Program-made: the position numbers and the translations under genes
Source: Protonemura montana
Taxonomy: Eukaryota > Arthropoda > Insecta > Plecoptera > Nemouridae
Direction: 5' to 3'
Length of the DNA: 64,000 nt
NCBI GenBank assembly: GCA_947568835.1
Contig: OX387604.1
Span: 21,047,076 to 21,111,075 of the forward strand
In this document: positions 1,078 to 56,506 of the stretch, piece after piece
How positions within the stretch are numbered: the first letter of the stretch is position 1
Layout of the letters: every line of letters begins with the position of its first letter
The notes under the pieces: model-generated
The model's database searches: none
Seen by the model: the letters and a program-made list of their open reading frames with translations, nothing else
Told to the model about the DNA's origin: nothing

Positions 1078-3553
1078 TGTCTGATGAACGCTACAGCGTC
1101 CTCATACTTCATGCCGAGCTCGATGAGGGCAAGCGCAACCATGACGGGCGCTCGGCCCAGACCGGCAACGCAGTGCACAGCGACGCAAGAGTCGGGAGAG
1201 TCGCGGAACCGGCACTTTAGAAGCTCGAACCATTCTTCCACCACAGCCGACGGTGGCGGTGTACCTAGAAATCAAGGACGGTTAATTCAGTTACCTAACA
1301 TCAAACACTGCATTTTCCAAACAGTACAATCTAAATTAGTCGACTTGTATTGAGCCCAATGTGAATTTATTTGTTGGTCAATGGGCCAAATGGTATTGGT
1401 TTGGAAAGTGTGCTGTAAAGTCGATTTATTTTTCCATAGCCCGGTAAACAATTTAAGTTGACATTACATATGCATTGTATTGTTTGAAGTATTCTCTTCC
1501 CCACTTTTGTCACAACTCTAGAATTTCTTTGCAATAATAAAAAGAATAGTAAAAAAAAAACAATGTTCCAGAATAAGCATAATTTATATTTAAACTGTAG
1601 AAATTAAACACAGATTTGACTCAGGCAGGGATTGCCAACTGTGCATCCAAATGCAGCAAACTTGAATGCCTATGCGAATGGATTTATGTGATATGAAACC
1701 AGCAAATATTAACCATTTGATGATGAGGTTAAACCTGACGTAGTCTAGAAGAAAGAAGGGGAAATCCGGTGCCGGCTTGTAGCCTACTCCTGTTGACGAG
1801 CACCAAGGCGACCACCGGCTGAACATCCCTTCCAAAAGATAGTAACATGCGAAGAACAGGATTCCTCCACAAATCCGTGCTATCAAGAGGTTAATATGCA
1901 AGGCAAATGAAGTTGCTCTACTAACTTTCATCCCCCCAACCTTTCTCCCAAACAGAACTGGTCATGTGTATGATAGTCATACCTGACCCAGCGCAACGTT
2001 CCTAACTTCCTTGATTTCTTTAGAACTGGTGTAACAAACACCCTTGAAAGTTTGGAACTTATCTGGATCTGATCTACAAAAATGTCCCCAGAAGGTTGTT
2101 TCAATTGCTCCTCTCATTTGCTACATGCAATCATCTCAATTCTTTGTTATCCAGAGATTAAAAAAAATTAAATCATTCACAGAGTTAATGGGTACAGTAG
2201 GTCATTTCACCTGCTGTTTATTTCTCCTTTATCAATCAGATTGCATTTTTAATATACCCAGGGGTTGGGGTTTCTTGAAGTTTCCAGTTCTTATAAAAAA
2301 AAACAGCGCAAAAATGTATGGCTGTATAAAATTTGACTGTTTAAACTTGAATTGCTTTTAATATTTGTAACAGATTCGTAACTTTTTTGTAATAGATCTA
2401 TTTCATGGAAAGTTGTTTTCTGTCTAATTGGTTACAGTTGAAATTAAAAAATGGGAAAAATCTAGCATTATTCCTATAACACAGAAAACATGAATGACAT
2501 CTATCCTTCCTCAATACAATAACTGATAAAATCAATGCCAAATATGTCAAATAACTAGAAGTTGCATAAACCAAAACAAAGGTGATTCAACAAACTCCCA
2601 TAAAGCTTAAATAAGTTTGCAAAATGGGTGAAAGAATGTTGCCAGGAAATACCCTTACAATAGAAGGTGGACATGAAAATGGTTGCCTGCAATCTGTTTC
2701 AAAATCAAAAACATATCATGAAAATAGTTTATGGAGTAACCAACTCAATGTCAGCATATAAAAAAAACCACAATTTCAATGATATGCCACAAAAGTCTAT
2801 TTGGATCCACTAGTCCCCAGGACTTCAGGCACAATAATGATCAATTTTCCAGACGGAAAAACTAGTTTCCAAAAACCAGCGTCAAACATGTCAATAGTCT
2901 GCAAGAAAAAAATTCACAGACAATGGCCATCTTTCACAATCGGGCATTCAGGAAGAAATAACTATTGATCAATACAGGAGCAAAATTGGGATAACTTCAA
3001 TGAGTAAGAAAACAGAACTAAATACTCCAGTGAAGTAAATAAAGAAAATAGGTAGGTCTTTGAGAAATTGTCAAGCGCTGAAATGTGTACCTAATTGGGA
3101 CTCCCAAACTGACGATGTGCCTCGGAATTTAGATGCTTAAGGCAAAGTCACGACAATCTGGTGAAAAAGTGCCTAAATATGAGTTTATTGTTTAGCAATT
3201 TGAGAAGTTCGACGTTTGATAAAATAGTATCTTGTCAGAGCTTGGCACTTGGAATCAAAAGATCCGTTAAAGAAAAGTGATAATTTTGTATGATGAATTG
3301 ATTAATGATATTTACCATCATCAAACATGAGGTCGGTGACACTGATCCCCTCGTTCTTGAGTGTTTCCGGGCTGTAGCTCGGCTCACAAACTCGTACAAC
3401 TTGCTTCACCTTATGCTTCTTCAGCTCCACGATGTAATTCTGGATGGTTTGGTCAGTGGGCCGGTCGGTGATCAGAAACTTCATGTTCTTGTACTCGATC
3501 TCGCAAGGAGCCGGTCTCAAGTCTTTCGAACGCATGTTGTGACTGGTAGTCAT
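1078..3553 (-). CDS. PRL-1: PRL/PTP4A-type protein tyrosine phosphatase, 3' end off the window
   Basis: PRL phosphatases are small dual-specificity phosphatases, usually held at membranes by a C-terminal prenyl group, and they bind CNNM magnesium transporters. Two coding exons are visible: 3316-3553 (start ATG at 3551-3553) and 1078-1264. They join in phase through G|GT at the general-acid loop MFDDG. The encoded part is about 141 residues against a usual 170-178. It contains the family core around DLRPAP, FLITDRP, the regulatory Cys in VVRVCEPSY, and the P-loop [11 protein letters not shown] with catalytic Cys and Arg. Upstream of the ATG the frame stays open only to an in-frame TAG, so this Met is the start. 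The second exon ends ATC AGA CA with donor GTAAGTT. The exon with KRRGAIN, the polybasic tail and the CAAX box was not found in bases 1-1077 and must lie to the left. The roughly 2-kb intron carries a 5S-type SINE. Confidence 0.93.
1718..2030 (-). repeat. 5S rRNA-derived SINE, copy 1
   Basis: This block aligns over its whole length with 61868-62228, by eye at about 70%, in the same orientation. Read on the minus strand, its head resembles 5S rRNA (ATCAAGG, GTTAGGAACG, CTGGGTCAGGTATGAC), though more decayed than in the other copy. The body shares GAACAGGATTCCTCC and a GACCACCGG block with the other copy (plus-strand wording). It sits in the PRL-1 intron in the sense direction of that gene. Boundaries are approximate and no target duplication was identified. 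Confidence 0.7.
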
Positions 3554-5509: not shown

Positions 5510-5517
5510 GAGTGCAC
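5510..5517. repeat. Target-site duplication, P-element copy A, left
   Basis: GAGTGCAC directly precedes the element's CAGGGGG end and is repeated exactly at 7301-7308. Eight bases is the duplication length of the P superfamily. Confidence 0.92.
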
Positions 5518-5590
5518 CAGGGGGTGGTAAGCAGGATAGCCCAGTGAGATTCAAAAATTAGTACCGTTGATTGCTATTTAGAGCGCGCTG

Positions 5591-5610
5591 TCTGCTACGA
5601 GAGTAGCAGA
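5591..5610. repeat. Subterminal palindrome in P-element copy A
   Basis: Arms TCTGCTAC and GTAGCAGA flank a 4-base GAGA loop, about 75 bp inside the 5' end. The same palindrome is present in copy B. It may be a protein-binding site or part of the end complex; this is inference. Confidence 0.7.
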
Positions 5611-5651
5611 TAGCTTTAGCGTTCCAGGTTTTTGATAATGGCCGGCGGCTA

Positions 5652-5690
5652 TGACGTCTTTAGCGTCAGCTCTGACGTCTTTAGCGTCAG
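5652..5690 (+). promoter_or_regulatory. Twin palindromic repeats upstream of the P transposase start
   Basis: The 18-mer TGACGTCTTTAGCGTCAG occurs twice without mismatch (5652-5669 and 5673-5690), with a period of 21 bp, about two helical turns. Each has inverted arms TGACG and CGTCA around 7 bases and contains a CRE-like TGACGTC. They lie about 85 bp before the transposase ATG and are conserved in copy B (30752-30769 and 30773-30790). Candidate binding sites for a host activator or for the element's own THAP protein. Confidence 0.6.
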
Positions 5691-5774
5691 TAGAGGCAGA
5701 GCAACAAGTGCTAGAAGTGTTAAAAGCTGTGGATGATATTTACCAGAACTCTAATTAAAGTCTGAAGTGGTGCT

Positions 5775-6829
5775 ATGGGAAAGGGCACGGGTCGTGTGCA
5801 AATGATTTGCAAGTATAGGGAGTGCACCAATACTCATTTGAAGGACCCGGCATTGTCTTTTTTTTATTGCACTAATAAAGACCAAGCACAACGCGATGCC
5901 TGGTTGACCCGTTCCGGCAACGAGGATTTGGTGGGTTCAACTGCGGAACATTTGAAAGCGAAGGGGTTTCGTTTGTGTGCTATACATTTCGAGAATAGCG
6001 AGTTCGTTAATATAAGAAAAAATCGGTTGGTCAAGAATGCGCTTCCTAAGCTGTATGCTGCTGAAAATGATCATGATGTCATTGACATTGCCAAAGACAC
6101 CGACACTGTGGCAGGTGAGGGAATCTGAGGTCCTGGCATACACTTTATGTTCCAGTAAATAGCCATTACTAGTGGGTACTACACTCTCCTAGCCTGTAGC
6201 TAATATGGACTGAAATTCGATTGCAGAATCGTCACAAGATGATAGTCCAGTTGCCATGTCTGAGGCAGAGTTTGTTGGTGATGGCATGGATGCTGCTGGG
6301 CCATCTTCACCATCAGTCTCCTCTCACCAGACTACACCATTTGGTAAGTTTAAAATCAATCTATGCACATCCTCCTTTCACTATAACTTTAAATTCAGTA
6401 CATTCAAATGCCAATAACCTGGGAGTTCTTATTGTATTTGTTCATTTATAATTTTTAGTCATTCACAAAAGAAGAGGCTCTATTCTCGGAGAGTTGGGGT
6501 ACAGTCTAGGTGAGCGCACACCGAGAAAGAAAACCCTGCTGTGCAAATACAAGAAAGCTGTGAAGAGGGTGCACCAGTTACTCAAACAGACTTCGCTACA
6601 AAAAGATAAAATTAAAGCGAAGGAGTTGTTGATGGCCGACTTTGTCAGCATCAATCATGAGTGGCTGGAGTGCTCTATCCATGGAGACATTCTGCTCACT
6701 CCGCTCCTGCAACTGTTCTGCAGAGTCATGCTGCACAGCTACTGCAAGAGAAGAAACCGCATGATTTCTGGAGCTGCGATAAAGGCAACCACCATCAAGA
6801 CCAGGATGAAGATTGTCAGGCACAATTGA
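5775..6829 (+). CDS. KP-like truncated P-element protein (275 aa): THAP domain plus coiled coil, no catalytic core
   Basis: Exons are 5775-6114, 6227-6343 and 6459-6829, with the same splice sites as the full-length copy. Residues 1-113 hold a C2CH THAP DNA-binding domain (ICKYREC, then LCAIHF, then the ALPKLY box). Residues 153-206 include a basic, leucine-bearing stretch (about 178-206) that could form a coiled coil. At residue 206 the deletion joins KDKIKA directly to KELLMADF in the same frame, so the last 69 residues and the stop are those of the full transposase. In Drosophila, KP elements with a comparable deletion encode a DNA-binding dimeric repressor of transposition. The same role here is inferred. 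ATTAAA follows the stop at 6911-6916 as a possible poly(A) signal. Confidence 0.8.
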
Positions 6830-6997
6830 ACCTCACATTGCTACAGCATATCTTGTGTGTTCAGCATGTCTTCTTTGTATGTTTTCACTTGCATAATTTC
6901 TAATCACTTCATTAAACACTTATATGTGTCAAAAATGATGCTGTTTTTCAATTAGTTATACCTTGGTCCTTGACTGATAATTTTTTGCTGTAACACT

Positions 6998-7138
6998 GAA
7001 TCTGCCAATGTAATGCCATTGCTTTATTAGTAACCTTTGCAATTTGATGAGAAAAATTAATGTCTGTAACAAGCATTATTATTTCCTCTCAAATTGCAAA
7101 TGTTACTGAAACAGCAATGACATTACTAAGACAGATTC
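6998..7138. repeat. Long imperfect inverted repeat in the P-element 3' region
   Basis: Arms 6998-7051 and 7085-7138 pair at 42 of 54 positions around a spacer of about 33 bases, downstream of the transposase stop. The same structure is at about 27051-27191 in copy B. It would fold into a hairpin in RNA and resembles an old internal duplication. Confidence 0.7.
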
Positions 7139-7300
7139 TGAATTTGAATGAAAACCGGGGCTAAATGATCGGTGAGGGGGAGTCGTGGTGCGGGGTGCAA
7201 ATAGTACCGTTGATTCGAACAGAGATGGCGCTAGCTGCGCATTTCGTGTAGGTTTTCTCCTATAACATTGGGTTACCCCTCTCTACCTAACTCCTCTCTG

Positions 7301-7308
7301 GAGTGCAC
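7301..7308. repeat. Target-site duplication, P-element copy A, right
   Basis: Exact repeat of GAGTGCAC found at 5510-5517. Confidence 0.92.
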
Positions 7309-15398: not shown

Positions 15399-18300
15399 TC
15401 ATGGATGTGAGTGTCCCTCTTGGAATGTGTTAAGCGTAGTATTGGTTTCAGTGTCAGGCTCAGGATCCAGCATCCTCACAGCTGCTTCTTGGTCCATAGC
15501 TGCCACCAGCCGAGCTTGGTTCGGATGGTCCACACTAGGCGATTTCTCTTCGAACACTGCAAATGATAGTAATTTTAAATGCAGATGTCAGATGAAACTT
15601 GGGATTATATTTATTTCAGACTGACTTACACTTATCGAGACTGATAATCGAGCCGACAATATCATTCACTGTTATTGGAGGCTCTTCCTCGAGCTGCCGC
15701 CGATTCCTTACGAGCCACCAATCGACCATGAAAAGAGCCAAAGCTAAGATCTTGATCGCAGCACAGATCCCAACGTACCTAAGCGAAGAAATAAAGCAAT
15801 CGTTAGCCCTTTAATCTATTAATTTCTCTTCAGCTTATCAGTAGTTACTGTTACTCACCTAAATCGAAACTGTTCAATGTCATAGAGTAGACATCTTCCT
15901 CCTTTTTCTCCACAAGTACTCGTCCACAAAATGCATGTTGAATCGATCAGATTGCCAAATATTATTGGAGCTGGGATGTATCCAAAAAGTCGGAATATAA
16001 CAAATTGCATCCCGAGGGCAAACGATCTTTCTTCTGGCCCGACGGATCTACCGACATAAAAACATGGATGTTTATACTGACTTGAGCATACACCAAGCAT
16101 GGTTTGTTTTAAAAAACATGGTTGTCATGTTGTTATGGTTGTCACATGGTTGTCAAAAACATGGTTTGTCATTATTTAAATAATTGTCAGCCACAACTAA
16201 AACACACTAAACAGTCTGGCAATTTGTGTCCATCCCCTCATCAAGGAATTGCTCAATTAAATCTAGTTCAGATTGTAACCAGATGGAATTCATTGGTTAA
16301 CTAGAAAGTACATTTTGAAAAATATATTCTTCGCTAGACCATACCTGAGTACAATCATGAGAAGAGGCATTTGAGTGACAGCCACGATAAATGTCATGAA
16401 GAAGAGCAATATGAGGAACGGAAAGATGGTTCTACACGGAGAATTGCATGGTCCCGCGGTCGCAACGGGCACAACCGTGACTTCCGCAAACTCGTGTAAG
16501 CCTGCAGACACGGGACCCGAGGAGTTGTTCTTGCTTTCATCAATACCTGCAACATCCAACATCAAATACCCTGAATGATGTGCATCTACTGCTTAACTGT
16601 TATATTTTCTTACATTCATTAACACACAATTTTGGCCATAGGATTATTTTGTATCTCAGCTTTTCTCTTCTAGCTGGGTTATTTGTTTGGTACTTTCAAG
16701 TGCAGATTAAGTTATTGCTGCAATTTGAAATTGCATGTAAATCACTTGACACTCATTGAAAGCCAAAATTTTAAATATCAGAGCCATCAATTCATTCTTG
16801 TTCCTGCCAGGCCAGAACCCCTTTTCACCAGCTCACTGCCAAAGAATTGCAATCCCGCAAAAATGGTTTTCACTAACAATTGGTAAATAAATAAAGGGCC
16901 CCAAGGGAAACCAGAGCCAATGAGACTGAAAATACCAGTCAGGGTCAAATATACAAAAATTACCAGCAAAATTTAAAAATTTCTGAGAAACAAAAGCCAG
17001 AAAATAAGTCCAAAATGTGACATCATACATGTGATCATACTGCGTTTTCTTTTTAAATTAATACATTTTAAAATATAATTAAGCTGATTTAGTGTTGTCA
17101 TAAAAAACCTCAGTATTCTAAGAGATTCTAATCACGGATCTGACTCGCGAAATTGCGATAGTTAAAAAAAATGCAGTACTTATACTTATTTCAATGCTGA
17201 CAGTGCATACAATAAATACGTTTGGCTTGGTGGACTACCTCATTTTATTCTAAATATTCAGACCACACTAACCACTATCAAAGGATGCTACTACCTTTGT
17301 TTTTGCAGCATAATATTGCGTTACGTCTCTTGTGCTTTTTTTTACAACAACCCTGTCTTTTATTACGCGACTATAGCCTTACTGTGTCCAATTTCGCAGA
17401 TAGATGGATTAAAAATTGAAAAAACCATTGGGTTCTTCAGAATTTGAAGCCAGAAATTGATAGTAAATACTGAATTTGAGATGGAATTACAATTTTGAAT
17501 AATTACACCCAATCCTGCAGAATTGAGAACAGTAAAAAATAAGTGAATATGGGTCCAGGGTAGAAAAATGATTTAAAGTGACCACACAATTTTTGAAAAC
17601 AACAACTCCTATATGCTGGGTACAAGCATTACGTTGTGATTTGAGAGATTTATCCAAATTGCTGAACATTATCGCTGTTCATTTCTATTGCAAGTATGCT
17701 ATCAAAGTAGAATGTAGCTATGAGTTAATCAAAGAATTAAGTTTTTTTAAATAACGTGTATGAATTGCAACAAAGATGGCAATAGAGATTTTCTCATGGG
17801 CAGTGGTACAACTACCGTGGGGGGCTCGTGGGGCCTTCGCTCATGTTGTGTTTCCCAAAATAATTTTAAAGTAAGAGTTGCATTTCAAGCACTCTCACTA
17901 CCCCATTGGGCTGTGGGACTAGATTCTCCTGGTAATGGTTACATAGTCACTACGTTGCTACTGCCGCTGAGTGCGCAGGCTACACACTCAAAGCTACTGT
18001 ATTACTCTTTTTCCACGCAAATTACCGAATTTGCGTTATTTCTGCGGGTTTGGGTAACTTATTTTTCACAATCGTGGGGAAAAATTATTTTACAGAATAG
18101 AGCAAGAAGTTTGGTAGTCACTGTTCACTGGGCTACGGTGGCTGATGCCAGTCACCGTTGGGCTCAAAAATGCATATTAAATGTGACAATAACAAGAAAG
18201 TGAATAAACTTCCAAAAACAAGAGCTTTTTCGTGTTTTCTGGTTTGCAGCGATAGTTTGGTCGTGACAAAAGAAACTTTTCTAGTAAAACTGGAAATTCG

Positions 18301-26880: not shown

Positions 26881-26888
26881 CCTACCAC
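26881..26888. repeat. Target-site duplication, P-element copy B, left
   Basis: CCTACCAC (GTGGTAGG on the element's strand) is repeated exactly at 30941-30948. Confidence 0.93.
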
Positions 26889-29800
26889 CAGAGAGGAGTT
26901 AGGTAGAGAGGGGTAACCCAATGTTATAGGAGAAAACCTACACGAAATGCGCAGCTAGCGCCATCTCTGTTCGAATCAACGGTACTATTTGCACCCCGCA
27001 CCACGACTCCCCCTCACCCATCATTTAGCCCCGGTTTTCATTCAAATTCAGAATCTGTCTTAGTAATGTCATTGCTGTTTCAGTAACATTTGCAATTTGA
27101 GAGGAAATAATAATGCTTGTTACAGACATTAATTTTTCTCATCAAATTGCAAAGGTTACTAATAAAGCAATGGCATTACATTGGCAGATTCAGTGTTACA
27201 GCAAAAAATTATCAGTCAAGGACCAAGGTATAACTAATTGAAAAACAGCATCATTTTTGACACATATAAGTGTTTAATGAAGTGATTAGAAATTATGCAA
27301 GTGAAAACATACAAAGAAGACATGCTGAACACACAAGATATGCTGTAGCAATGTGAGGTTCAATTGTGCCTGACAATCTTCATCCTGGTCTTGATGGTGG
27401 TTGCCTTTATCGCAGCTCCAGAAATCATGCGGTTTCTTCTCTTGCAGTAGCTGTGCAGCATGACTCTGCAGAACAGTTGCAGGAGCGGAGTGAGCAGAAT
27501 GTCTCCATGGATAGAGCACTCCAGCCACTCATGATTGATGCTGACAAAGTCGGCCATCAACAACTCCTTCACTCCCCGAAGGAAAATGGTCTCCGAGATC
27601 AGGGCGCTGAACCTGTCCAACAGCGACTCAACAAAGTCCACCATGTTCCTTGTTGGATAGGTCAAGTGCTCCTTTTGCAGATCATATTCCTTCAAGGAAA
27701 TGAAGAGGTGGTCTTCAGTCAGCTCGTGCGTCAAGATCAGCGACTTGCATTCGGTGCATGATATGACTAAGCAAAGGCGCTTGGCAATGTAGCCGCATAC
27801 GTAAGCGGTTGGCAGTCTCCGCAGGTCCGTGAGCTGGTCCTCTTCTCGCGAGGCAACTGGTACCGCAAGCAGACGAGGATTTGTGGTGGCCCTGTCTGAT
27901 GGTCGCAGCACCTACAAGAAATGAGTAATGAGTTACCATGCTCATAAAGATAATATCAGCAACCATACATATTTGTTTGGTGCATAAACATTAAAATTAC
28001 CTTTGAAGGTGTAACAGAGGCATCCTTTTTCTCGAGGAGAGCCCGCAGGTCGCTGAGCAGCTGGTCGTTGTCACGCTCACAGTTCGTTCCTCTGGACCTG
28101 TAGCTGCTCAGGTTGGTAATGGTTGCTGTCTTCAGGGCAGCAGCAAACTGCACTGTCGTTGGGTTCACATTACAAATGCCATGTTGGCGTATGGTCCCAA
28201 ACAAGTTTTCCAGAGCATCCTGGTCAAGATTCCTCAAGGAAAGGTAGCGAAAGCCTTTTTCAGTCCTCAGGTAGTCCCACAACTTCACTAAAGAAACAAT
28301 GGTGACAAGAATACCCGAGACTGTTGGTGGGCTTAGCTTCTGCAAAAAGGTTAATTATATGTCAATGTAATAACCTACATAGATTTATTTACCTGTAACA
28401 GCAAAATGTGGTACCTAACAGACTGGTAGATCATAAAGCTTACCCGTCCAGTGTGAGAGTTGGTGAATCGCCAGCCTAGGACTTTAGCTCGCATCTCAAC
28501 CCAGAACTGCAGATGCGGAGATTGGTTGGACAGAACACAACGCAGCTCCTTTCCCCGATCAGGGTGCAGTGTGGAGCCGTTGACACTGTCAAAAAACTTG
28601 TCCAAGAGCTCCACAAACTCAGCAGTGTGCATGGCCTCCTTTGGAAAAACGCTGCCATCCCCCCAAGTGGCCATGGTCAGCATCCCTGCAGCAACCGTGT
28701 GGCTCAGGACCTGGGCTGCCAAACTGACGCGCATCTTGAATGACCCTTCTGGTTTCAGATGGTTTGCCGTCAGCTTGATAGCCATTCTTGCTGTCAGCTG
28801 ATCAAGCTCGTAAAACCTTTCCAGGTGCTCCCACTTGGCAGTTTTAAAGCACGATTGGACCTCATCCCACCAGGTAACATTGTTTTTCTGAAGAATGTTC
28901 CTCATACATTTTAAGAGATGAGGAGGATCAAAGAGTACAAAAATCTTCTTGCCATCAACCTCGAAAAATGTCTCACTCGAGCCATCAGGTGTGGCATCCG
29001 ATAGCTCCCGGATTGCTCCGCGGTTGGTGGGGCCCTGATCACACACTGTGACCACAACATTTAAGCCAATGCCTAGCAACGCACTGATGGCATGCCGCAA
29101 CAACTTTGCCAAAATGTCACTAGGAACGGTGTCACATGTGTAATAATAAGCAATCGGTTGCTTCCACCTTTTGGCAAGTCCTCGAACCATTATAACAAGG
29201 GCATGATTGGCGATGACTCGTGTTGTGCCAAGGTGGCCGTAGTCTTCAAACCCTGAAAATGAATTTTAGTCAAATATTGATTTATTGTATTAATACCATT
29301 TAATCAAAATCAGACAACTTGATGTAGTCTTCCTTACCTGATACGTTGTCCTCGCTCTCGTTATAGTAGATGCCCGAGCGCAAGGACATCTCGTCGAAGA
29401 GGACAACACAGCATCGGTCCCTCTCACTCATCTTACTCGCCCGTGTAGCAAGATGAGCGAGAATTTTTTGGTTTAGGCCCGTTTTAAACGACAAGTTGTC
29501 CAATAAAATGCGCAATGTTTTCGGGCTCGGCAGAGTAATTATTTTGCGCATATATTCGTAGCACCGAGGGCTTCGCTTCATAATGGCCAGTGCCCAGATT
29601 TTGTCTTGCAAATTCCACCTATAGGTCAAAATTTGTTGTTAAAACAAGCTCGAACAGATAATTATAAGATTATTTCCACCCGTTGCTTACACACCTGCGA
29701 GACTTTATTGGCCGGTTGCGGTTCCGAAGATCTCCCAAGATGAAGGACGACATGGCAGGGGAAAAGGTTTCTGTGTCGGAGATAAGCCTCTCCAGTGCTG

Positions 29801-30940
29801 GCGCAGATTTCAATTTCTCCACAGCTTTAATTTTATCTTTTTGTAGCAAAGTCTGTTTGAGTAACTGGTGCACCCTCTTCACAGCTTTCTTGTATTTGCA
29901 CAGCAGGGTTTTCTTTCTCGGTGTGCGCTCACCTAGACTGTACCCCAACTCTCCGAGAATAGAGCCTCTTCTTTTGTGAATGACTAAAAATTATAAATGA
30001 ACAAATACAATAAGAACTCCCAGGTTATTGGCATTTGAATGTACTGAATTTAAAGTTATAGTGAAAGGAGGATGTGCATAGATTGATTTTAAACTTACCA
30101 AATGGTGTAGTCTGGTGAGAGGAGACTGATGGTGAAGATGGCCCAGCAGCATCCATGCCATCACCAACAAACTCTGCCTCAGACATGGCAACTGGACTAT
30201 CATCTTGTGACGATTCTGCAATCGAATTTCAGTCCATATTAGCTACAGGCTAGGAGAGTGTAGTACCCACTAGTAATGGCTATTTACTGGAACATAAAGT
30301 GTATGCCAGGACCTCAGATTCCCTCACCTGCCACAGTGTCGGTGTCTTTGGCAATGTCAATGACATCATGATCATTTTCAGCAGCATACAGCTTAGGAAG
30401 CGCATTCTTGACCAACCGATTTTTTCTTATATTAACGAACTCGCTATTCTCGAAATGTATAGCACACAAACGAAACCCCTTCGCTTTCAAATGTTCCGCA
30501 GTTGAACCCACCAAATCCTCGTTGCCGGAACGGGTCAACCAGGCATCGCGTTGTGCTTGGTCTTTATTAGTGCAATAAAAAAAAGACAATGCCGGGTCCT
30601 TCAAATGAGTATTGGTGCACTCCCTATACTTGCAAATCATTTGCACACGACCCGTGCCCTTTCCCATAGCACCACTTCAGACTTTAATTAGAGTTCTGGT
30701 AAATATCATCCACAGCTTTTAACACTTCTAGCACTTGTTGCTCTGCCTCTACTGACGCTAAAGACGTCAGAGCTGACGCTAAAGACGTCATAGCCGCCGG
30801 CCCAGAGAGGCGCCGGCCATTATCAAAAACCTGGAACGCTAAAGCTATCTGCTACTCTCGTAGCAGACAGCGCGCTCTAAATAGCAATCAACGGTACTAA
30901 TTTTTGAATCTCACTGGGCTATCCTGCTTACCACCCCCTG
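26889..30940 (-). mobile_element. P-superfamily DNA transposon, apparently complete copy B (4,052 bp)
   Basis: On the minus strand the element runs from CAGGGGGTGG at 30940 to CCTCTCTG at 26889, between perfect 8-bp duplications GTGGTAGG. It carries all structural features of copy A (14-bp subterminal direct repeat at 26974-26987 and 30886-30899, twin palindromes, 3' inverted repeat) plus the 2,253 bp missing there. The transposase frame is open across all seven predicted exons. Near identity to copy A and intact duplications point to recent movement. It lies about 1.6 kb upstream of the Oatp-A start codon, in the same orientation as both Oatp genes. Confidence 0.96.
27360..30667 (-). CDS. 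P-element transposase, 7 exons, 908 aa, no break seen
   Basis: Exons: 30328-30667, 30099-30215, 29695-29983, 29338-29618, 28444-29252, 28001-28339, 27360-27911. Their lengths sum to 909 codons including stop and every junction keeps phase. Domains in order: C2CH THAP zinc finger (residues 1-113), acidic Ser-rich linker (114-152), coiled-coil-like region (about 178-206), then the RNase H-like catalytic core. The core has acidic residues in LFDEMS (Asp about 324), VCDQGPTN (Asp about 414), and DQDALENLFG (Glu about 656), followed by the family motif IRQHG...NVNPT. The segment between the second and third acid corresponds to the GTP-binding insertion of P transposases. The protein is as long as human THAP9 (about 900 aa). 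Enzymes of this family excise and reinsert the element in a GTP-dependent way. Activity here is untested. Confidence 0.93.
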
Positions 30941-30948
30941 CCTACCAC
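30941..30948. repeat. Target-site duplication, P-element copy B, right
   Basis: Exact repeat of CCTACCAC found at 26881-26888. Confidence 0.93.
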
Positions 30949-32223
30949 GTCCTAGCTGCAAGCATCGAGTAGACTACATTGAACACAAAATATATCGAGC
31001 CGCTAAACGCTATAGTTGTCCGCACTGATGGACGCACAATGAACTGCTCACATAATACACGCAAACGTGTTTAATTCTAAAGATTAACGTATCAATTGTA
31101 AAATTTCGGTAAGGTTAAGAAATGGGTGGTAAACGCAGTGTCAGAAATGTGAAGTATAGGGGCAAAAATCAATATACATCAAAATGTTTAGCAGCGTTGA
31201 TAAATTGGAGATTCGAGAGGAGTCCTACAGATAGCAGTGTGAAGCTGGAACTGTGCTCCAGTTGATATCTAAAAACCCAATGCAAGTACAATGAGATCAG
31301 TTGAGATCAACGTGGCATAGCACGAGTTGAATATTGTAAAATTTAATATTTCTTATTTTCTTTAGCATCTTTTTACTTTGATTGGTTACTCCGGTGACGA
31401 TAATTCTGAGTTATCAAAAAGAAAATTAGAGCTATTACTCTGTTGCAATGTTATTTATATTCAAATAAAATATTAACTTTCTGACTTTGATCGGCCGTGT
31501 GTAAGTCAGTTTAATTAAGTCTTATTAATTAGTCATTTTAATTTATCATTTTAATTTATCATTTTGATTTCTACCTCGGTCTTCCCCTTCTAATGATTGT
31601 AAGTGACTGGTATTTTTGGTCGCAGTTGCATTAGGCGTTCCATCAAAAATCATCTCTGTGAACAACGAGTGTAACCAAATAATACCTAAATAATTGCATT
31701 CTCCACACAGTACCTGTCACAGGCTTCTGCTATACAATAAATACCAATTACTGCCAGCAATAAAAGTGCAAGCAATTAAAGTCACATTCCGCTTCAAAAA
31801 TGTCATCTTCCAGTTAAGGAAATGTTCATGATTTCACCGATGCAAATCTTTGCACATTTTAACAACATATTTATTTTTCAAAAATTATTATTATACACAT
31901 TACATGAATTACCATTAGATTATTACCATCAATAAGTCGCGAAAAGTAATTAATCAATGCGAATATTTGTTTCCCAATAAAATGACAGATTTTCTTATCT
32001 CCCTTGTGTTGTACCTAGAATGATACGTAGGTAATTCGTGATAATACCCGAGTTAATACTCACACACATAAACAAGTAAAAAAGTTCAAGAAAACTTTTC
32101 ATTGCGATTGAATCAGTTAGATACGGTTAAAATACTTGACTTTCAGGTAAATTAACGAAATAAAAAACATTATTTTTTTGCGTGTTGAAAACAACACGAT
32201 TCTTAGAGTCTCTGAGATGTCTG
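30949..32223. other. AT-rich gene-free stretch
   Basis: No open frame, splice-consistent exon or recognisable repeat was found. A short TAATTTATCATTT duplication lies near 31.53-31.56 kb. Confidence 0.5.
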
Positions 32224-32762
32224 AGATCTTATCTGGACCAGTGAGGAAGAGAGCTGATGTCGGTGATCACCATTTACCAATGAAGTATGTTTCTGCGATG
32301 AGATCTTATCTGGACCAGTGAGGAAGAGAGCTGATGTCGGTGATCACCATTTACCAATGAAGTATGTTTCTGCGATGAGATCTTATCTGGACCAGTGAGG
32401 AAGAGAGCTGATGTCGGTGATCACCATTTACCAATGAAGTATGTTTCTGCGATGAGATCTTATCTGGACCAGTGAGGAAGAGAGCTGATGTCGGTGATCA
32501 CCATTTACCAATGAAGTATGTTTCTGCGATGAGATCTTATCTGGACCAGTGAGGAAGAGAGCTGATGTCGGTGATCACCATTTACCAATGAAGTATGTTT
32601 CTGCGATGAGATCTTATCTGGACCAGTGAGGAAGAGAGCTGATGTCGGTGATCACCATTTACCAATGAAGTATGTTTCTGCGATGAGATCTTATCTGGAC
32701 CAGTGAGGAAGAGAGCTGATGTCGGTGATCACCATTTACCAATGAAGTATGTTTCTGCGATG
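32224..32762. repeat. Tandem array: 7 perfect copies of a 77-bp unit
   Basis: Units start at 32224, 32301, 32378, 32455, 32532, 32609 and 32686, each beginning AGATCTTATCTGG and ending TTCTGCGATG. By eye all seven are identical. Each contains the 10-bp perfect palindrome GGTGATCACC. 77 is not a multiple of three, so the array is not a protein repeat. Perfect identity implies recent expansion or homogenisation. Confidence 0.97.
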
Positions 32763-33826
32763 ACTCGTTACCTTCTCTAGCCCCGGATTGCAAGTTATTT
32801 CAAGCCCCATCCAGGGAAACAAGAAAACCCCTTTGCTGTCCTCACATTTAATATGCACAGAGTGGAGAAAACAGTCAGAGTGAATAATTTCCTCAGAAAT
32901 AAACAAGACTTTGCGAATACCTTGTAAACATTTTTCCACGTCCAAAGTAGAAAATTTCAGCGGTTTCAGGTGGACTGTTAATATAGCTCAATGAAAGTGG
33001 ACATTCTAAGATGATGCGTCTTAAAGTGTTACCTTTCCAAATTCCAACTTCTCTAGGAATTGTCATCAAGTCATTCGGAGCTAGTTGGAGGCTATTATGG
33101 AGGAATTACCTGCATTCATTACGGAAAATTGAAACTATATCTGGACATATCTATCAAGCTGAATTCTATTTTTATGGTATGGATGGTTCAATTTAATTAA
33201 TTAATTAGTTGTATGACTAAATAATATAATATTTGATAGACTAAAATAAAAACACATTCGCATTTTATTGATAAAATCTATCATAGTCCAAACTGGAAAA
33301 TCGTGTTTTCTCATTTCCAGGGCCTTGAAGGACTTGGAAAAGTCATCAAATAAAATGCATTGATTGCATTGGTCAATGATGATTCTAGACCAATTCTCCC
33401 CCTTCCCCTCCCTCCCACCCCTCCAATAACCACTAGATAGATCCCCTGTTGCAGATGCAAGATATCGATGGTTAAATAAATGAGATTACCATGGGGTTGA
33501 ATTACCCCCCTTCTCTAAAAACACCCCAAATATTTCCCCTGCTTTGTGTATTCGGACACAGGTGTGCAATTTCCAAAAAAAAAATACAAGGAAAATTAAA
33601 ATGGCAAAAAAACATTTTACCACATTTGATATGCTACATAGATAATAAATAATATCGCTAAATGAGAAAAATGTTTCTATTCAGTCATGACTTGAATTAG
33701 AATTATGTTCTACGAAACATATGTTCAGGTTGCAGGATCGTTTGGTTTCTCTAGTGCAAGAGAATGCCACCATGTTCACATTTTTTGAACGCTACATGCA
33801 AAAAATGACAGGTCCGTTCATTTGTT
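32763..33826. other. Region between the tandem array and Oatp-B, with an unexplained minus-strand frame
   Basis: On the minus strand an open frame of about 90 codons runs from near 33000 to the edge of the array at about 32763 (containing VEKCLQGIRK, IIHSDCFLHS and FPWMGLEITC). It has no start codon of its own and I do not recognise it. The rest is low-complexity flank plus the probable 3' UTR of Oatp-B. Confidence 0.35.
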
Positions 33827-42774: not shown

Positions 42775-45700
42775 TCATGAGGAAGGAAAGCCGACAGCAG
42801 CCTCTCCTGGGTCACTGCAACATCTAATATCTCCCACGTCGTCCGGTGTTTGTGGGCAATAAGGCTCGTCGTAATTCGTCACGCAGTAAGTTCCAACAGC
42901 GCTGAAGCAAATAAAGTGCCGACGAGCGATGCGATCACCCGATCACATCGATAACATCGATAACATCGATCACAGCGATCACCCTAACTGAACTACAAAT
43001 ATCTGGACGTCCTGATCCTGATCATGATTTTCGGATCGTAAGGCGTCGATTTACAGACTACAAGATAGTTACTTATAAATAGTTCCCGAAATTGGTCGTT
43101 TGAACTAATTAACTCAGTATATGAAACTTCATTATTTTTTACGTTACACAATTGTTTACTATTTCCCTCAAATATCGAACTGTTTTTCCCCTAAAACAGA
43201 CTTTACCAAGCAGACTTAACAAAAAAAAAAAAAATCTAGAGCTGTTATTGTAACAGTTTTGGATTATTTTTTTTAATTTGCATCATGGTATTTCCGAAAC
43301 GCAATACACGTGTAATCGTGAATATTAGGAAGGGGAGGGGAGGGATGCACGCGAATGGCGCTGGAGCCCTAGTCAATGGTGTAAAACATATTTGAGAGGA
43401 GTCAGCCCAAAAAATGATACTACAAACTGCACATACCGGAGCTCTGTGACAATTTGCTTAAAGCCGTACCAAAAAGGCAAAACATGCGCCAAAAATGAAA
43501 ATTCAACCTTTCCTAACACTACTCTATGCCTATGAATTCGCAAAAAAAAACATTGATATTCAAGTGTCTTATCTGTTTGCGTTTTAGTTTGCACAATCTC
43601 GTTTTGTTTAAAAAAATATATCGGCTAACTTTGAAAAAATCTATAAAATAATACCATCAAATACGAGCCTCTCTGTCAGGTAATTTGAGCTCATCTTGAT
43701 TAAATCCACCGCTTCAGTTGTGTTTGTGTGATAGCAAACCTCTCACAACTCTCGTAATGAAGGTTTGATCTTCGTACCTGTTGGGTGTGTGCTCCCCCAT
43801 CAGAATTGGTCCCCCAGCCTGTGCGGTCGAGGGTCTCTGGGTTTTCGACCCTGTAGGGCAGCGCCGGGTGCACGACGAACTAAGTCGGGAGGTGTGGGTG
43901 TTGATGCTTTCTGCCAAATAACACACACTGCGCATATGACTGCACAATGCCACATCTAGAAACGATTGCAACAAGTCATTTACCTACTGGAACTGTTTCA
44001 AGAAAAGTATTTTTGTTGTTTTTAATATGAGCTTTTGTACAGAAGGAATATCCTGATTAATATTTGAGGATGAAAAGAATTGACACAAAAAAAAATAGCT
44101 GGATATGTTACGAATTTGTATTTTTTCATTATTGTCATTGATTATAATTGCTCCCCAAATATGAGTTCAACAAAATTCAAGAACAGAAATGATATCGGGC
44201 ATCGGCTAACAGTCAGGTGTAGAAGGGGCATACGTATATGGCCTGTTTAAAGACGAGATTGTTCTCTCCAGTTGTCAAATTGCAATGGACAAGAGAATTC
44301 TAGCAGGGATTGCCACTCACTGGTTTTGTTCGCGCAGAAAGGTTGCATCCTGCCACCATTGACGCAGAAATCCACACTTCCCAGCCTTCCAGCTTCTCCA
44401 TAATGTCCAGCATTTGTGTGCATCACCTGCACCACTTCAGCATCACCACTACCTAACTTATTCGGACTTCTGATCAGAGGCTTCGCTGGGTCCAAAGCTG
44501 AGAAAAGTACAAGATGTACATACATTCGATCCTATTACAATGTCTATTTTTTATTTCGGTTTATGCATACGATATTAACTTTATCAACATTTTATCGAGT
44601 CATGTATTTATTTGGAATTTGAAGCTCGGGTGAAATCGAGGGCACTAAAAGCAAGTGTTCGAATTGAATTAAAATACCTAGTTTATATTATGGTTATGGA
44701 ATTATGAAACGTTCCAGATTTTGAATAATTTTTTACACATACAAAAAGCGACATCAAAAATATAACAGGTTTTTTTTTTAGAGGTGTTAATTTTTTTATC
44801 TTGTCCCTATGCACTTCTTTGTGAACCTGTTAATTTCTATGTTGCCCCTTCTGAGACCCAATTTAGCCGTCCGGCACTTAATTTGGGAATACCGGGAAAA
44901 GCAAAGAAAGGTGACGCTATCCGTTTAGCGTCGCATCGTTAGAATATATTTCAAATCAGACAATCAAATCATAAAAGTCATCATCTGGAGTCACTGTAGT
45001 AGACATTGCTAGAGTTATAAGTACTGACCTAGTATCCGATGCATTCGAAACTGCAGCGCCTGTGAGATTAGACCACAGAGATGAGCACCTAAGCTGTGGC
45101 CAACGCAGGTTGACATATCTTCCGGAAGACCGCTAGTTCTCAAAAACGTAAATGTTTGAGCAGCGCACTTTGCGACCAATTTCAAATTGTGAACCGCTGC
45201 TGGGTAACATGGAGGCTTAGCGATTTCCCCCCAGTCCAACACAAATACATTGTAGCTCCCATTTTTTAAATAAGCTGAAAAAAAGATACGGAGTATCGAT
45301 AATATTTCCAGTAAAATATATGCATAATACGACTTCATACTAAGAAGCTCGGAAGTTACGCAAGACAGAGATATAAGTATTTTACCATCACGAAGAATTA
45401 CCGTCGGTAACTTTCCATCTCCACCAGCATACCCATGAATTAGAAGCACATTTTTGTGGAGGGGGTTCCAGCCACTAAATCTGAGCCAGTCCGCTTCAGC
45501 TTCATTGACTTTCTTACGGGTTTTTGGGCTCTCACTGAAACACATTGTTCCTGTATTGTCCACTTGCTAAACATTCGGAATAGATGTCTGCCAAAATAAG
45601 TCAACAAAATTTAATTCAAATGTTTACTTCAAGGCATTACAGAATATTCTGAAGCTTTTTGGTTAGTAATCTCTGTTACTACCTTAACGCTCACAAAAGA

Positions 45701-50037: not shown

Positions 50038-53000
50038 TCAATCGAAGGGGCATTCGAGACTGTTCTTTATTGTGACGCAATAATGGCCAGATGCTCTGAA
50101 AAATCAATTTACATACAATATTAGACAAATGTCAAAATAATGATAACTGACGCGATGTCATAGAGATATTGCAAATTGAATCATGTTGTAAATATTACCC
50201 TTCAGGGGTAGCTTCACCCATAGCTACCGAAGGGCCTGACAACAAGCCTAGCGAGCGACCCCTTTTTGGACACGAGGGGGTGCACGGAACACCCAGGTGT
50301 TTCTTTTTGCCAGCGATAGTCGCTGCGAAGTAACAGGCGCTCTGGAAGTGGCTGCATCTTGCCCGCCCTGCATTAATAAAACATTTAAGGTTATAGCTGT
50401 AAATTGCAGTTGTAATTTATAACGTGGAGAAATAAAACATTTGTCGGCAATTCTCTTCCAGCTCCCGAGAGATTCTAAATAGCCTTTCATAAAACGTGTG
50501 TGCATGTGTGTGTGTGTGATGATTTCTTTCTAAAAATGTTTATTTTTTTCATGAAAATTGTGTTTACGTACTACCACGGCTTGGGGAAATACGCGTGCCA
50601 TTTTCTGGAAATAGAAAATTGAAGTATCAGTTTTCATCCCTAAATTTGGTTCATAGCATATCGTTTTTTTTTTCTGACAGTAATATCTCGAAGAAAAATT
50701 CTTTTCATTCTAGTTCCTGCGACCCTAAGAACTGTGATTTGTAGAAAGTTTTGATTATATCGTGTCTGTATCTCCCTACAACTGCCGACAAAATGCCTTA
50801 CTTTCTTTGAAAAATTGTCAATAAAAAGAAATGCACTTACGAAGTCGGTGGCCCTTACAGCCCGGTTGACTGCGACCCCCATTGATACAGAAGTCAATGT
50901 GGCCCACTTGCGACTCTTCGCCCAATGCCCCTGCATTTGTGTGCAGCACTTGCACTTGAGTCGCGTCGTCTCTAGTCAGTCGAAACGACCGATTGCCGTA
51001 ACGGTCAACCAACGGTCGAGCTGGGTCCAAACCTGATTCAAATTTAAACGTCAATCTCGGAATAATAGTTCGCTCTTATTTTAGGTCGACCATATTTAAA
51101 CTATAGGTAATGATGATGAGCTTGAAGAGTACATCACCAAGAAGTCTCCATTAATTGGCTAAACATGAGTGAAAAGCCATAAATTCCTACCTAGACCTAC
51201 GTGAATGATTTCTTAAGATTTACTTATTGATTTCAGCTAATAAGAAATAAACATGATTCCTACCTATTATTTTGTGCATTTTAATGCTAAGATGATTACT
51301 CATCATTCCACAAATATGTGCACCCAAACTGTGGCCAACACAGTGCGTCTTTCGAGCCAAAGCACCCTGATCAGTGAGATACGAGTAGAGCTGAGCAGTG
51401 CACTGGGCCACCAGTCTCGTATTGCTCAGAGCCGACAAATAACAAGGGAACAGCGTCAATGGCTCCCAATCGACCATAAACACATTATAGTCGCCTCTCT
51501 TCACGTACGCTGCACGTAGACCATAAAGAAAAGAAACAATCAGTGTTATTTTCTGCACGTTACGTTGAACAGTTATTGTAATTGAACTAATGTAATGCAC
51601 ACCTGTAACCAGAAGTGAAAAGGAGCGTGCTCGCTTGCTAAGAAGCCATTCAACCGACTTGAAACGCACAAATTGTGACGATTTATGATAATAAGGTTCG
51701 GAACAACTGTGTTACTGAACGGAAAGTGGACCAAATTTATCAGAACGTGAAGTTTAATGAATTTGTGTGATAAAAATTGCCAAGTTGGGATGACCAGTAC
51801 TTACCAGCTCTTATAAATGTCATTGGAACTTTGCTTTCGGTCCCGTTGAATCCGTGTATTATAATCACATTCTTTTTGCCTGGATCCCAGCCACTGTATT
51901 TCAGTGACGCAGGATTGCGGAGATCTATTATCTTTCTGTAAGGATTCTCGCTGAAATATGGATGATTAATATTAGATTTCATTGTACGAATTAAAGATGT
52001 TGTGCTTGAAAGTAACGTAATCCGGGTCCGGATGAAATTATATTTACTGTGTGTATAGAAAGAACTTGATATCGCTATCTGGACAACTGGAACTTTTTTT
52101 GAGGACGCACCTCCAATACCGGACATCGAACATGTTCATAAGAACGGTGCCAAAGCATGCTAGAAACAGAGAAAACCACGAGGAGGATTAGGTGCAGCAT
52201 TGGAGATTCAAATGTGTAATGTTAAAATCACAATCACAAATCGTCAGTCAGCCTGAATGCCGAGCTGATGATCCAACCGGTACCTGGTTCAGATTTTTTA
52301 TTCAAGGTGACAATAATTTTTTGAGAAAGCTCAATCTGTGATCGTCGTGGGTTGATTTTTTTAAACTGATGCCAAATTAATTATTAACTTTTATATTAAA
52401 GAAATGTCTCACTAGGGAAATTTGTGGGAGTTGCCAGTTGCCTCCATCATCCAAGAGTTCGATTTATTTAAAAGTTTTGTTCTTATCTTGGTTGAAATCA
52501 CAAGAAAATACAAAATATCAACTACATTTTTGATTTAGTATTAGGAGGCTTGAAGCGCATCCACTTTTAGATTTTTCCCTGTAAGTTATGTCTCCAACGT
52601 TTTTCTGTGAAATTCCTATACCTATGTGTCCAACAAGAAATTGCCCGCGATTTTCCGACCTATCAAAATAAGTACATCACTTCGGGACAACATGAAAGTA
52701 CAAACAAAAATCTCGGTCAGAATCTTCCACCGCACCTTTTAATACTGAGAGAAGGCGATAAAAAAACTGTCTCCGGATCACGATTAAACCTCACGTCATT
52801 TGCCCTCCATTTTTGGCACATCTCACGACTTAAAGAGATGCCATGTTATTATCAGAACACGACTTTCAAGAAACAGACCGAAGGAAATACCGAAAATATT
52901 AGAAGGTCTATATTGACCACTTTGAATTACTACTCTCATAGGCACGCAACTTTCTTACACCATCGTGCAAACTTTGAAAATACAAATGTGTTAAGTGTAA

Positions 53001-53696: not shown

Positions 53697-54324
53697 GGTA
53701 AGACATTACCAACCCGGGCAGCAGCTAATCAAAGACTAAGATGAAACCGTACTTCTGCGTTGCACTTGAATCTGCTACAACTCCCAATGAATGATGCGCG
53801 ACGCCTTTTCGCGATGCCCTAGTTGTGTTCGGTAGGATCGAGGTAGTAGCAGGTGTAAGCATTTATTTCGAACATTCTAACTGCTCAATGCTTTTTCGTG
53901 TCGAGCGGAATGATAAACGTTGGCTAAGCTATGATTATATTAATTTACGTGAACGTTGTAAAAAAATATTGACATGAATTTGATTTCAGAATTAGATCGA
54001 CCCTGATGGGTAAACCGGTTTTGTAATTTTGACCATCAACGCGATTTTTGCAGTTATACTTATAGTCTTATGAATATATTGTGCTTGATTTTTCTCGAGA
54101 AAAGATGGAATAGGGCACATTTTCTCGATTTTTTTGATTTCTCATCGAATCTTGCGCAGTTGAGCGGGTTGATTTTAAACAAGAACCCCTGTTTATACTA
54201 GTGTGCGCAGCCTGCATAACACCACACATGTGTCAGTGGCCGAGTCCCCACATAACCTCAATTGTTCTGCCATACGGGCTGACGATAACAAGTGAAGCAA
54301 TTGATTGATAACACATTTAGTAAA
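53697..54324. promoter_or_regulatory. Shared upstream region of lipase D and DDX28
   Basis: The start codons of lipase D (minus) and DDX28 (plus) are 628 bp apart in divergent orientation, so both promoters must lie here unless a longer leader intron exists. No TATA box or other clear element was identified. Confidence 0.55.
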
Positions 54325-56506
54325 ATGTTGCTTAAATTAAGAAATATGCATTTGCGATCGATCGGTGCATTTCAAGAAAATCTTCGCCCGTCATCTTCTT
54401 TGCCTTCAGTACATGCAAACGAATTTATAATGAAAGTACGCAATTCGAAGCAAACTAGACACAGAGATGGAAATAAACAACCAATAATTAATTGTAAACG
54501 ACAAGAATTCAACCACTTCTCTGCTACTCTGCATGGAAAGTTTGATACAGTGCCTTTGGCATCCATTGGTTGGCACCACAAAAGGGCGAAGGGAGATTAT
54601 TTTGTGATTGACTTTTCAAACGAAGAAAAACGTAGCAAATCTCTCGTTACTAGTATTGCCCTAGCTAGTGATAGTTTTAAAAAGTATGGAGTCTCAGTTG
54701 AGCTTGTGAAAGCTCTTGAAAGAAATGGCATTACCAAAACGAAATCTATTCAAGGGCAAGGAATACAATCCTTGCTCTCCAGAGCTAACACACTTGTAGC
54801 GGCAGAGACAGGTTGTGGGAAAACCCTGGCTTTCTTACTTCCCATGCTACAACAGATAGCTGAATGGAATCCACTCATTGAAAACAGATCACAGCAACTT
54901 AATTCTCCTCTTGGTCTTATTATAACCCCAAGCAGAGAGTTGGCACATCAAATTTGGGTAAGAGCTAAAACAACAAATTGAGAAGTATCTACTGCATCTA
55001 TAATACAAATATTTTAAAAACGTTGTCCTGTTTTACAGGAAGTCTCAAAGTCCTTGTGTGAAAACATGGACATTCAATGCAAAGTATTAATTGGGGGAAG
55101 AACTAAGCTAAAAATGATGAACCCTAACTTTGAGAAAATTGATCTACTTGTTGCTACACTTGGTGCGCTTGGCAAGTTAACGACTACTGGTATTTATAAT
55201 ATGAAGCAAGTTCGACATGTGACACTGGACGAAGCAGATACACTCTTGGATGAAAGTTTTAGTGAGAAACTGACACATTTTCTACGCAGATTTCCAGTAA
55301 GTTGAGAACTGTGAGATATTTTTTAAGAAAATGAGTTGCTACTTAAAATTATTCAATCTTTTGACCACATTTTGTGTTTCAGTTTCATTTCAAGGGAATT
55401 GAGACACAAGACACCTTTCCATCGGGAGCACAGCTTACCCTAGTTAGTGCCACCATGCCTACAAGTTTACCTGATATGCTAGCTGATATTGTTGTGGTAA
55501 ATAACCCTATTTACTCAAATTGATTTTCTATCTAGTTCTTTTGGAGAGAAAATTTGAATTCGAGTGCGCATAATAAAAGGTTATACCTGGGCCATCACTC
55601 TGAGAAGCATTATCTGTTGTAGAATTTTTGAAAAATTATACCGTTTTAAGTTTTATCTATGGAATCAAAGACATATATACTGTGGATCACTGTAGACAAA
55701 GATCGTTATTTTGAGCAAATTAAGAATATATGATTCACAAATATATGTGAGTTCTCCATTGTGATCAATTAATTTAAATTTCACTGTGATCATGAGCCTA
55801 ACATTGCCACATTTTTTCAGCCTGAATCTTTGCAAAAAGTGACTAGTGAACGACTCCATCAATTCCTCCCGAACGTTTCTCAGCGGTTTGTGCGAATGGG
55901 CAGATCTGACAAGCCGGGAGAACTTCTTCGCCTTCTCAAAACCAACTCTGGTCCTGTCATCGTGTTCAGCAACAAAGCTTCAACTTGTGATTGGGTGTCA
56001 CTGTTTTTGGAGGAAAACAACATAGCGTGTGTTAACTTAAACGGAGATATGCCTCTCATTGTGCGGATGGGCAAATTTGAACAATTTAAGTCTGGAGTGG
56101 TGAATATCCTGTCTTGTACGGACATTGCATCGAGAGGACTCGATACCATCAATGTCGAGCATGTTATCAACTACGATTTCCCTCTGTACACTGCCGATTA
56201 CATCCATCGATGTGGTCGGACGGGAAGAGAAGGAAGCCCTAACAAGTGCCGAGTCACCAACTTTATCACTGCTCCTCGAGAAATCGATCTGGTGCAGAAA
56301 ATTGAGGTAGGAATGGAAATGAAAGGAGAGAAAACAAACAAACAGAAAAAAAAACATTAAGGTTCTGGACTAAAATTGTATGCTAATGTTGTTTTAAATT
56401 TCAGCTTTCAGCAAGGAAGACTGGATCTCTGCCCAATGTTGATGCTAATATATCTAAAGTTATTCAAGATAAAATATTGAGAAACAACCGTACTTCAAGA
56501 GTATGA
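54325..56506 (+). CDS. DDX28: DDX28-type mitochondrial DEAD-box RNA helicase, 5 exons, 530 aa
   Basis: DDX28 unwinds RNA during assembly of the mitochondrial large ribosomal subunit. Exons: 54325-54957, 55039-55296, 55383-55496, 55821-56306, 56405-56506, all in phase 0. The first in-frame ATG gives MLLKLRNMHLRSIGAF, a basic amphipathic start fitting mitochondrial import; the frame extends upstream only through a GTG. Helicase motifs in order: I AAETGCGKT, Ia PSRELAHQ, Ib region TLGAL (TPGAL in human DDX28, TPGR in most relatives), II LDEADTLLDESF, III LVSATMP, IV VIVFSNK, V CTDIASRGLD, VI HRCGRTGREG. DEADTLLDESF and the NYDFP and LVQKIE stretches are characteristic of DDX28, and length is close to the human protein (540 aa). 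Introns are 81-324 bp. Divergent from lipase D. Confidence 0.96.

Follow-up and report, generated by a model that had tools for sequence, protein, structure and literature searches.

KP is the best-known example of a transposon that is kept in check by deleted copies of itself, and in the P element of flies a 66-kDa repressor arises through intron retention. Internally deleted P copies have been reported in flies (PMC7776569). KP lacks bp 809–2561 and codes for 207 amino acids, 199 of which match the transposase (PMC4938643). For P deletions, an interrupted transposase together with the presence of the DNA-binding domain has been used to define putative repressors (PMC12393704). A literature search on truncated-transposase repressors of the P superfamily led to a single paper, a review of the P element, and one on self-insertion of P elements to a single tool paper.

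Here, we describe a complete copy (F) and an internally deleted copy (D) of a P-superfamily element in a stretch of 64,000 nucleotides from Protonemura montana (contig OX387604.1), hereafter called the window. The pair resembles several described systems. Zebrafish Pdre2/Pdre likewise belong to the non-drosophilid P superfamily, with 8-bp target site duplications (TSDs) and a full-length THAP9-type gene, and Pdre also has multiple internally deleted copies (PMC7776569, PMC10983969). The termini differ, being CATACCTGTCAAC in Pdre2 (PMC10983969) and CAGGGGGTGG in the element described here, and the word “repressor” is absent from the available part of the text of PMC10983969. The P elements and P-MITEs of Anopheles gambiae are comparable in that a separate lineage harbors P-superfamily copies along with short relatives of them, with TSDs of 8 bp; however, the central regions of the P-MITEs are unrelated to P (PMC1562414), whereas D results from a simple deletion and has a coding open reading frame (ORF). 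Comparable, too, are the putative repressor deletions from experimental P invasions, since D also has both of their sequence features, the interrupted transposase and the retained DNA-binding domain. Those deletions, however, were tracked in populations through their frequency and by RNA-seq (PMC12393704), whereas D is one genomic copy.

Complete and internally deleted copies of a P-superfamily element

Copy F occupies positions 26889–30940 of the window on the minus strand and comprises 4052 bp with seven predicted exons, which, joined at six predicted GT-AG introns, form a single uninterrupted ORF for a 908-aa transposase. It is flanked by the TSD GTGGTAGG, located at 26881–26888 (read on the minus strand) and at 30941–30948. 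Four Pfam families (PF05485, PF21787, PF21788, and PF21789) matched the F protein above their cut-offs, covering a THAP domain (aa 12–93, E = 4.5e-07), a TNP-like RNase H N domain (aa 294–426, E = 7.1e-37), a GTP-binding insertion (GBD; aa 454–571, E = 2.8e-17), and an RNase H C domain (aa 652–680, E = 7.3e-10). The P helix-turn-helix (PF12017, aa 242–285) scored 22.2 bits, slightly under its cut-off of 23. A phmmer search against the PDB matched F to the Drosophila P transposase 6p5a (E = 1e-28), with Asp324, Asp414, and Glu656 of F aligning onto D230, D303, and E531, the catalytic triad of that enzyme (PMC7776569). F consequently shows the layout of the P superfamily, i.e., a THAP domain, an RNase H domain interrupted by a GTP-binding insertion, and a D-D-E triad, and it looks autonomous. 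Within 29670–29990 (minus strand), retention of intron 3 would let exon 3 of F continue for a few codons (…SRRCVSNGWK) before a stop, and the predicted THAP product of approximately 256 aa recalls the 66-kDa intron-retention repressor of flies.

Copy D is an internally deleted element of 1783 bp with exact boundaries at 5518 and 7300 on the plus strand. The sequence GAGTGCAC flanks it on the left (5510–5517) and on the right (7301–7308), so that both copies carry the 8-bp TSD of the P superfamily. Exon 1 (5775–6114, aa 1–114) contains the start codon and the THAP domain (aa 12–93, with Cys12, Cys17, Cys68, and His71), the predicted exon 2 spans 6227–6343 with GT-AG boundaries, and the predicted exon 3 (6459–6829) holds a possible coiled-coil stretch, the deletion junction 6618|6619, the native C-terminal 69 aa, and the stop codon. 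Splicing at the predicted GT-AG introns would give an ORF of 828 nt including the stop, corresponding to 275 aa, in which residues 1–206 of F (with the change Leu198Ser) are joined in frame to residues 840–908. THAP is the sole transposase Pfam domain left in D (PF05485, E = 1.8e-07, 32.3 bits against a cut-off of 23.9).

D lacks aa 207–839, and with them the helix-turn-helix, the GTP-binding domain, and the entire catalytic triad. It retains the 5′ leader except for 16 bp, introns 1 and 2 together with the stop codon, an ATTAAA hexamer resembling a polyadenylation signal (6911–6916, plus strand), and both ends of the element. The main ORF, the splice sites, and the ends are undamaged. The first-pass annotation of this locus had given the deletion as 2253 bp, the joint as residue 206 to the native last 69 residues in frame, and the product as 275 aa, and all of these numbers proved correct. 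Its statement that the catalytic core was removed while THAP was kept is likewise confirmed, as the triad lies within the deleted residues and PF05485 scores above its cut-off in D.

The termini of the element read CAG…CTG, and its inverted repeat is weak, consisting of an offset imperfect match in 21 of 30 columns; the terminal inverted repeats of the fly P element are 31 bp long and perfect (PMC7776569), those of Pdre2 13 bp (PMC10983969). A 14-bp direct repeat, TAGTACCGTTGATT, is located subterminally, once at element nt 42–55 and once at a distance of 85 bp from the 3′ end (5559–5572 and 7202–7215 in D, plus strand). When the left end was shuffled and compared with the right end, a shared 14-mer was reached in 0 of 2000 shuffles, the longest being 12. 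By likeness to the internal 10-bp sites of the fly P element (PMC7776569), TAGTACCGTTGATT might be regarded as a candidate transposase-binding site. In a BLAST comparison of the element with the window, the 3′ region of each copy also matched its reverse complement over 141 bp. Positions 6998–7067 and 7069–7138 of D form a 70-bp imperfect inverted repeat (77%), which is present in F too.

Relationship of the two copies and their surroundings

Apart from a 16-bp match, the BLAST comparison yielded only D and F, with the 141-bp self-match inside each. Over 1783 aligned bases, the two copies differ by two substitutions (window positions 6594 and 7170), one of which produces Leu198Ser, the sole amino-acid change; beyond the deletion, the only further difference is a single 16-bp indel in the 5′ leader. 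Judging from this near-identity, D and F split very recently. An interpretation of the two as haplotypes or as an assembly duplicate was ruled out, since their TSDs and flanks differ.

The 2253 bp missing from D correspond to 27571–29823 on the minus strand (element nt 1118–3370 of F) and encode aa 207–839, including Asp324, Asp414, and Glu656. The junction is blunt with no shared base, and a search for microhomology at this point found none. It occurs once within the 64-kb window. The exact 34-mer of the junction had no match in prokaryotic and viral contig collections, in which no animal transposon would be expected, and the largest transposase exon had no relatives in the viral contig collection. 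The 14 bases spanning the junction (6614–6627) agree at 93% with part of the THAP exon (5955–5968), which is probably a coincidence and possibly the trace of a bridging template in repair.

D and F are separated by approximately 19.6 kb, and local hopping is described for P elements (PMC7776569 section 7). F is situated between two tandem paralogs on the same (minus) strand that encode OATP-type transporters with Kazal domains. Pieces of one of them were detected by Pfam at 40736–34333, and the other runs from its first detected piece at 24141 to a last, weak match at 16344, past which D is located. Seven tandem 77-bp units with 100% matches lie between the two genes (32222–32763). A Pfam scan of 20 further open frames, out of 84 listed with at least 90 codons, returned pieces of OATP, lipase, Kazal, and DEAD-helicase sequences. 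Two paralogous lipase genes (45018–45566 and 51223–51955, minus strand) share about 46% identity over 93–94 aa, and DEAD-box helicase gene pieces (DEAD, Helicase_C) are found at 54289–56357 on the plus strand. Searches for tRNAs and Rfam families gave no matches.

Outcome of random deletions

As a null model, internal deletions of F were drawn at random, 400,000 in all, with 150 bp preserved at each end, and the 300,992 deletions of at least 500 bp were analyzed. In 69.0% of these, THAP was spared and one or more catalytic codons were lost; deletions that kept THAP, hit the core, and had both breakpoints in exons and in frame made up 12.0%. When retention of the possible coiled-coil region was required in addition to THAP and a hit in the core, the share was 44.8%, and 8.5% were also in frame. 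An earlier count with a slightly different rule had given 72.3% and 12.6% of 150,459 deletions. When the deletion length was fixed at 2253 bp, THAP and the coil region were retained, the core lost, and the frame preserved at 147 of 1500 positions.

Since THAP comes first and the core lies in the middle of the gene, KP-like products are the usual outcome of deletion. Most internal deletions of such a gene spare THAP, and architecture alone can therefore not be read as selection; as random deletions often give the form seen in D, its architecture is no evidence for it. The arrangement of D is compatible with function, though it bears no sign of selection, and the preservation of the frame is best taken as chance. 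Still, the 8.5% obtained for THAP, coil region, and frame together leaves scope for selection.

Comparison with KP

Like D, KP is an internally deleted P-type element that kept both ends and THAP, lost the catalytic core, and codes for a short N-terminal fragment of the transposase. The first-pass annotation had interpreted D as KP-like on the basis of the lost catalytic core and of the retained frame, THAP domain, and coiled coil. Retention of the frame turned out not to be a shared feature: with only 199 native residues among its 207 (PMC4938643), KP has lost the native frame. To judge by KP, frame retention is dispensable for repression. The two products also differ in extent. KP leaves the native frame only after the helix-turn-helix, as residue 246 of F corresponds to P residue 153 in the alignment with 6p5a, which places the helix-turn-helix region within the 199 residues of KP. 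The N-terminal part of D, by contrast, ends at residue 206, before this region (F 242–285), and is followed by 69 native C-terminal residues. Binding, repression, and abundance have been reported for KP, whereas D would by its sequence be a putative repressor.

A KP-type repressor would retain a dimerization region (a leucine zipper), and for D a coiled coil had been proposed. The stretch of residues 176–206 contains neither proline nor glycine, and its best 28-residue heptad window has hydrophobic residues at 5 of 8 a/d positions. However, 180 of the 881 windows of F score just as high. For residues 176–221 of F, three heptad registers tie, placing residue 198 at position e, a, or b, and the score of the best heptad window is the same before and after the change Leu198Ser. 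A single-sequence structure model of D exon 3 (mean pLDDT 59.6) predicts helices at aa 174–196 and 200–224 with a break at 197–199; the THAP exon was modeled with a mean pLDDT of 43.6. Given the frequency of the heptad score along F and the low confidence of the helix model, the proposed coiled coil is doubtful; it is plausible, yet not distinguished from chance.

What stands of the KP-like reading is thus the interrupted transposase with a DNA-binding domain present; the retained frame is not a trait of KP, the helix-turn-helix covered by KP is missing, the coil is doubtful, and the form is no sign of selection. The further suggestion that the same self-limiting strategy has arisen independently in another lineage is a conjecture.

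Explanations for the deleted copy

All observations taken together, D is probably an ordinary non-autonomous derivative, produced by internal deletion from a P-superfamily transposon that was active recently, and a repressor product is plausible for it. This explanation is based on the distinct TSDs, the two substitutions in 1783 bases, the ORF and domains of F, the footprint-like scar in the leader of F (see below), the null model, and the deleted copies reported elsewhere. It would involve the excision of a full-length copy without the leader footprint of F, followed by a repair that recopied the element partly from both sides and joined the new ends bluntly, with loss of the middle. Abortive gap repair has been described with short direct repeats of 5–8 bp (PMC8700633), and the lack of microhomology at the junction counts against this route in the form described there. 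As D has an intact 8-bp TSD of its own, the shortened copy would later have moved to its current site. Since both ends and the subterminal repeats were kept, an F-type transposase should be able to mobilize D in trans. If transcribed, D could yield a 275-aa THAP protein that binds the ends of the element without cutting, given that it has kept the 5′ leader, introns 1 and 2, and the polyadenylation-like signal; a weak interference with the transposase would be plausible as a by-product.

A special case of this explanation, which is a serious possibility even if we lean slightly against it, is that the 275-aa protein is absent or inactive and that D acts as a transposase-titrating DNA substrate or as a source of small RNAs. 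The intact ends and subterminal repeats of D are in line with such a role. For flies, both a preferential mobilization of deleted copies and a limitation of P invasions by non-autonomous copies have been proposed (PMC12393704). Moreover, the 16-bp indel alters the leader in such a way that the first upstream ORF has 32 codons in D and 10 in F, two further upstream ORFs being identical, and the longer one could reduce translation in D. The undamaged state of the main ORF, splice sites, and ends of D, on the other hand, speaks against an absent or inactive protein.

We consider it unlikely that D is a KP-like repressor maintained by selection. Under this reading, D would be transcribed and spliced, and its THAP protein would dimerize, occupy the subterminal sites, and block the transposase, so that carriers suffer less transposition. 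It is in accordance with the intact THAP domain, the loss of the catalytic residues, the preservation of the leader, introns 1 and 2, the polyadenylation-like signal, and the subterminal repeats, and the presence of an apparently intact element as target; D also shows both features used to define putative repressors in flies (PMC12393704), where KP accounts for 11 of 16 P copies in one strain (PMC10299278). Within the window, however, a single deleted copy was found, the helix-turn-helix is lost, unlike in KP, and random deletions often produce this form. As to the dimerization it assumes, the coil is in doubt; Leu198Ser falls into this stretch and leaves the best heptad score as it was, but the low-confidence model breaks the helix at 197–199.

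A footprint-like scar in the leader of the complete copy

The 16-bp indel between the two copies is due to a structure in F that resembles an excision footprint, GGCCGGCG-CCTCTCTG-GGCCGGCG (30795–30818, minus strand), where D has a single GGCCGGCG (5640–5647, plus strand) and thus provides the unoccupied counterpart. The direct repeat GGCCGGCG is 8 bp long, which is the TSD size of the element, and the middle 8 bp, CCTCTCTG, equal the 3′ terminal 8 bp of the element itself; alternatively, they could be composed of the last 7 bases of the 3′ end and one base of the 5′ end. F therefore displays, in sequence form only, a P-type footprint with a duplicated 8-bp target, a terminal remnant, and an unoccupied site in D. 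This suggests that a copy in the same orientation was inserted into the leader of an ancestor of F and then excised.

The short form of such a footprint has precedent in flies, though it is not the sole form there. The fly P transposase leaves 17-nt overhangs (PMC7776569 section 7). Among repair products from Drosophila spn-A mutants, 14 isolates carry 8 nt of terminal repeat between a target copy and a second, nearly whole one, while a second class, also of 14 isolates, retains most of both overhangs; these two classes are the commonest spn-A repair products seen (PMC2895639 Table 1). In the fly, the 8 nt can stem from either end, whereas those in the leader of F would come from the 3′ end only.

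It is very improbable that the 16-bp difference reflects a plain local duplication or slippage: short direct repeats are indeed not rare, with 278 pairs of 8-bp repeats 4–34 bp apart in the window and 14 of them exactly 8 bp apart, but only in the pair of the F leader does the whole insert equal element-end sequence, 8-mers fitting any combination of element ends are rare (on both strands, 10 among the 8090 of F and 32 among the 127,986 of the window, with true ends and footprint counted), and the first spn-A class has a matching layout (PMC2895639 Table 1).

If the structure is a footprint, the excision machinery of the family to which D and F belong would have worked recently in this host. 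Its absence from D would further indicate that D derives from a full-length copy without the footprint and not from present-day F; a precise loss of the 16 bp in D may be considered instead.

Implications

The most far-reaching combination of these elements, namely that a non-drosophilid P element independently made a frame-preserving 275-aa THAP repressor (206 + 69 residues, without helix-turn-helix) while its intact copy bears the scar of a self-insertion and excision, is decidedly unlikely. If true, it would place self-limitation and self-attack in one P-superfamily family within 26 kb. D and F offer a clean and testable example of an apparently intact element paired with a coding deletion derivative, and their termini differ from those of the fly P element. 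As the footprint-like scar in F suggests a recent excision, a transposition assay appears realistic. The pair bears on how general the limitation of transposons by their own deleted copies is.
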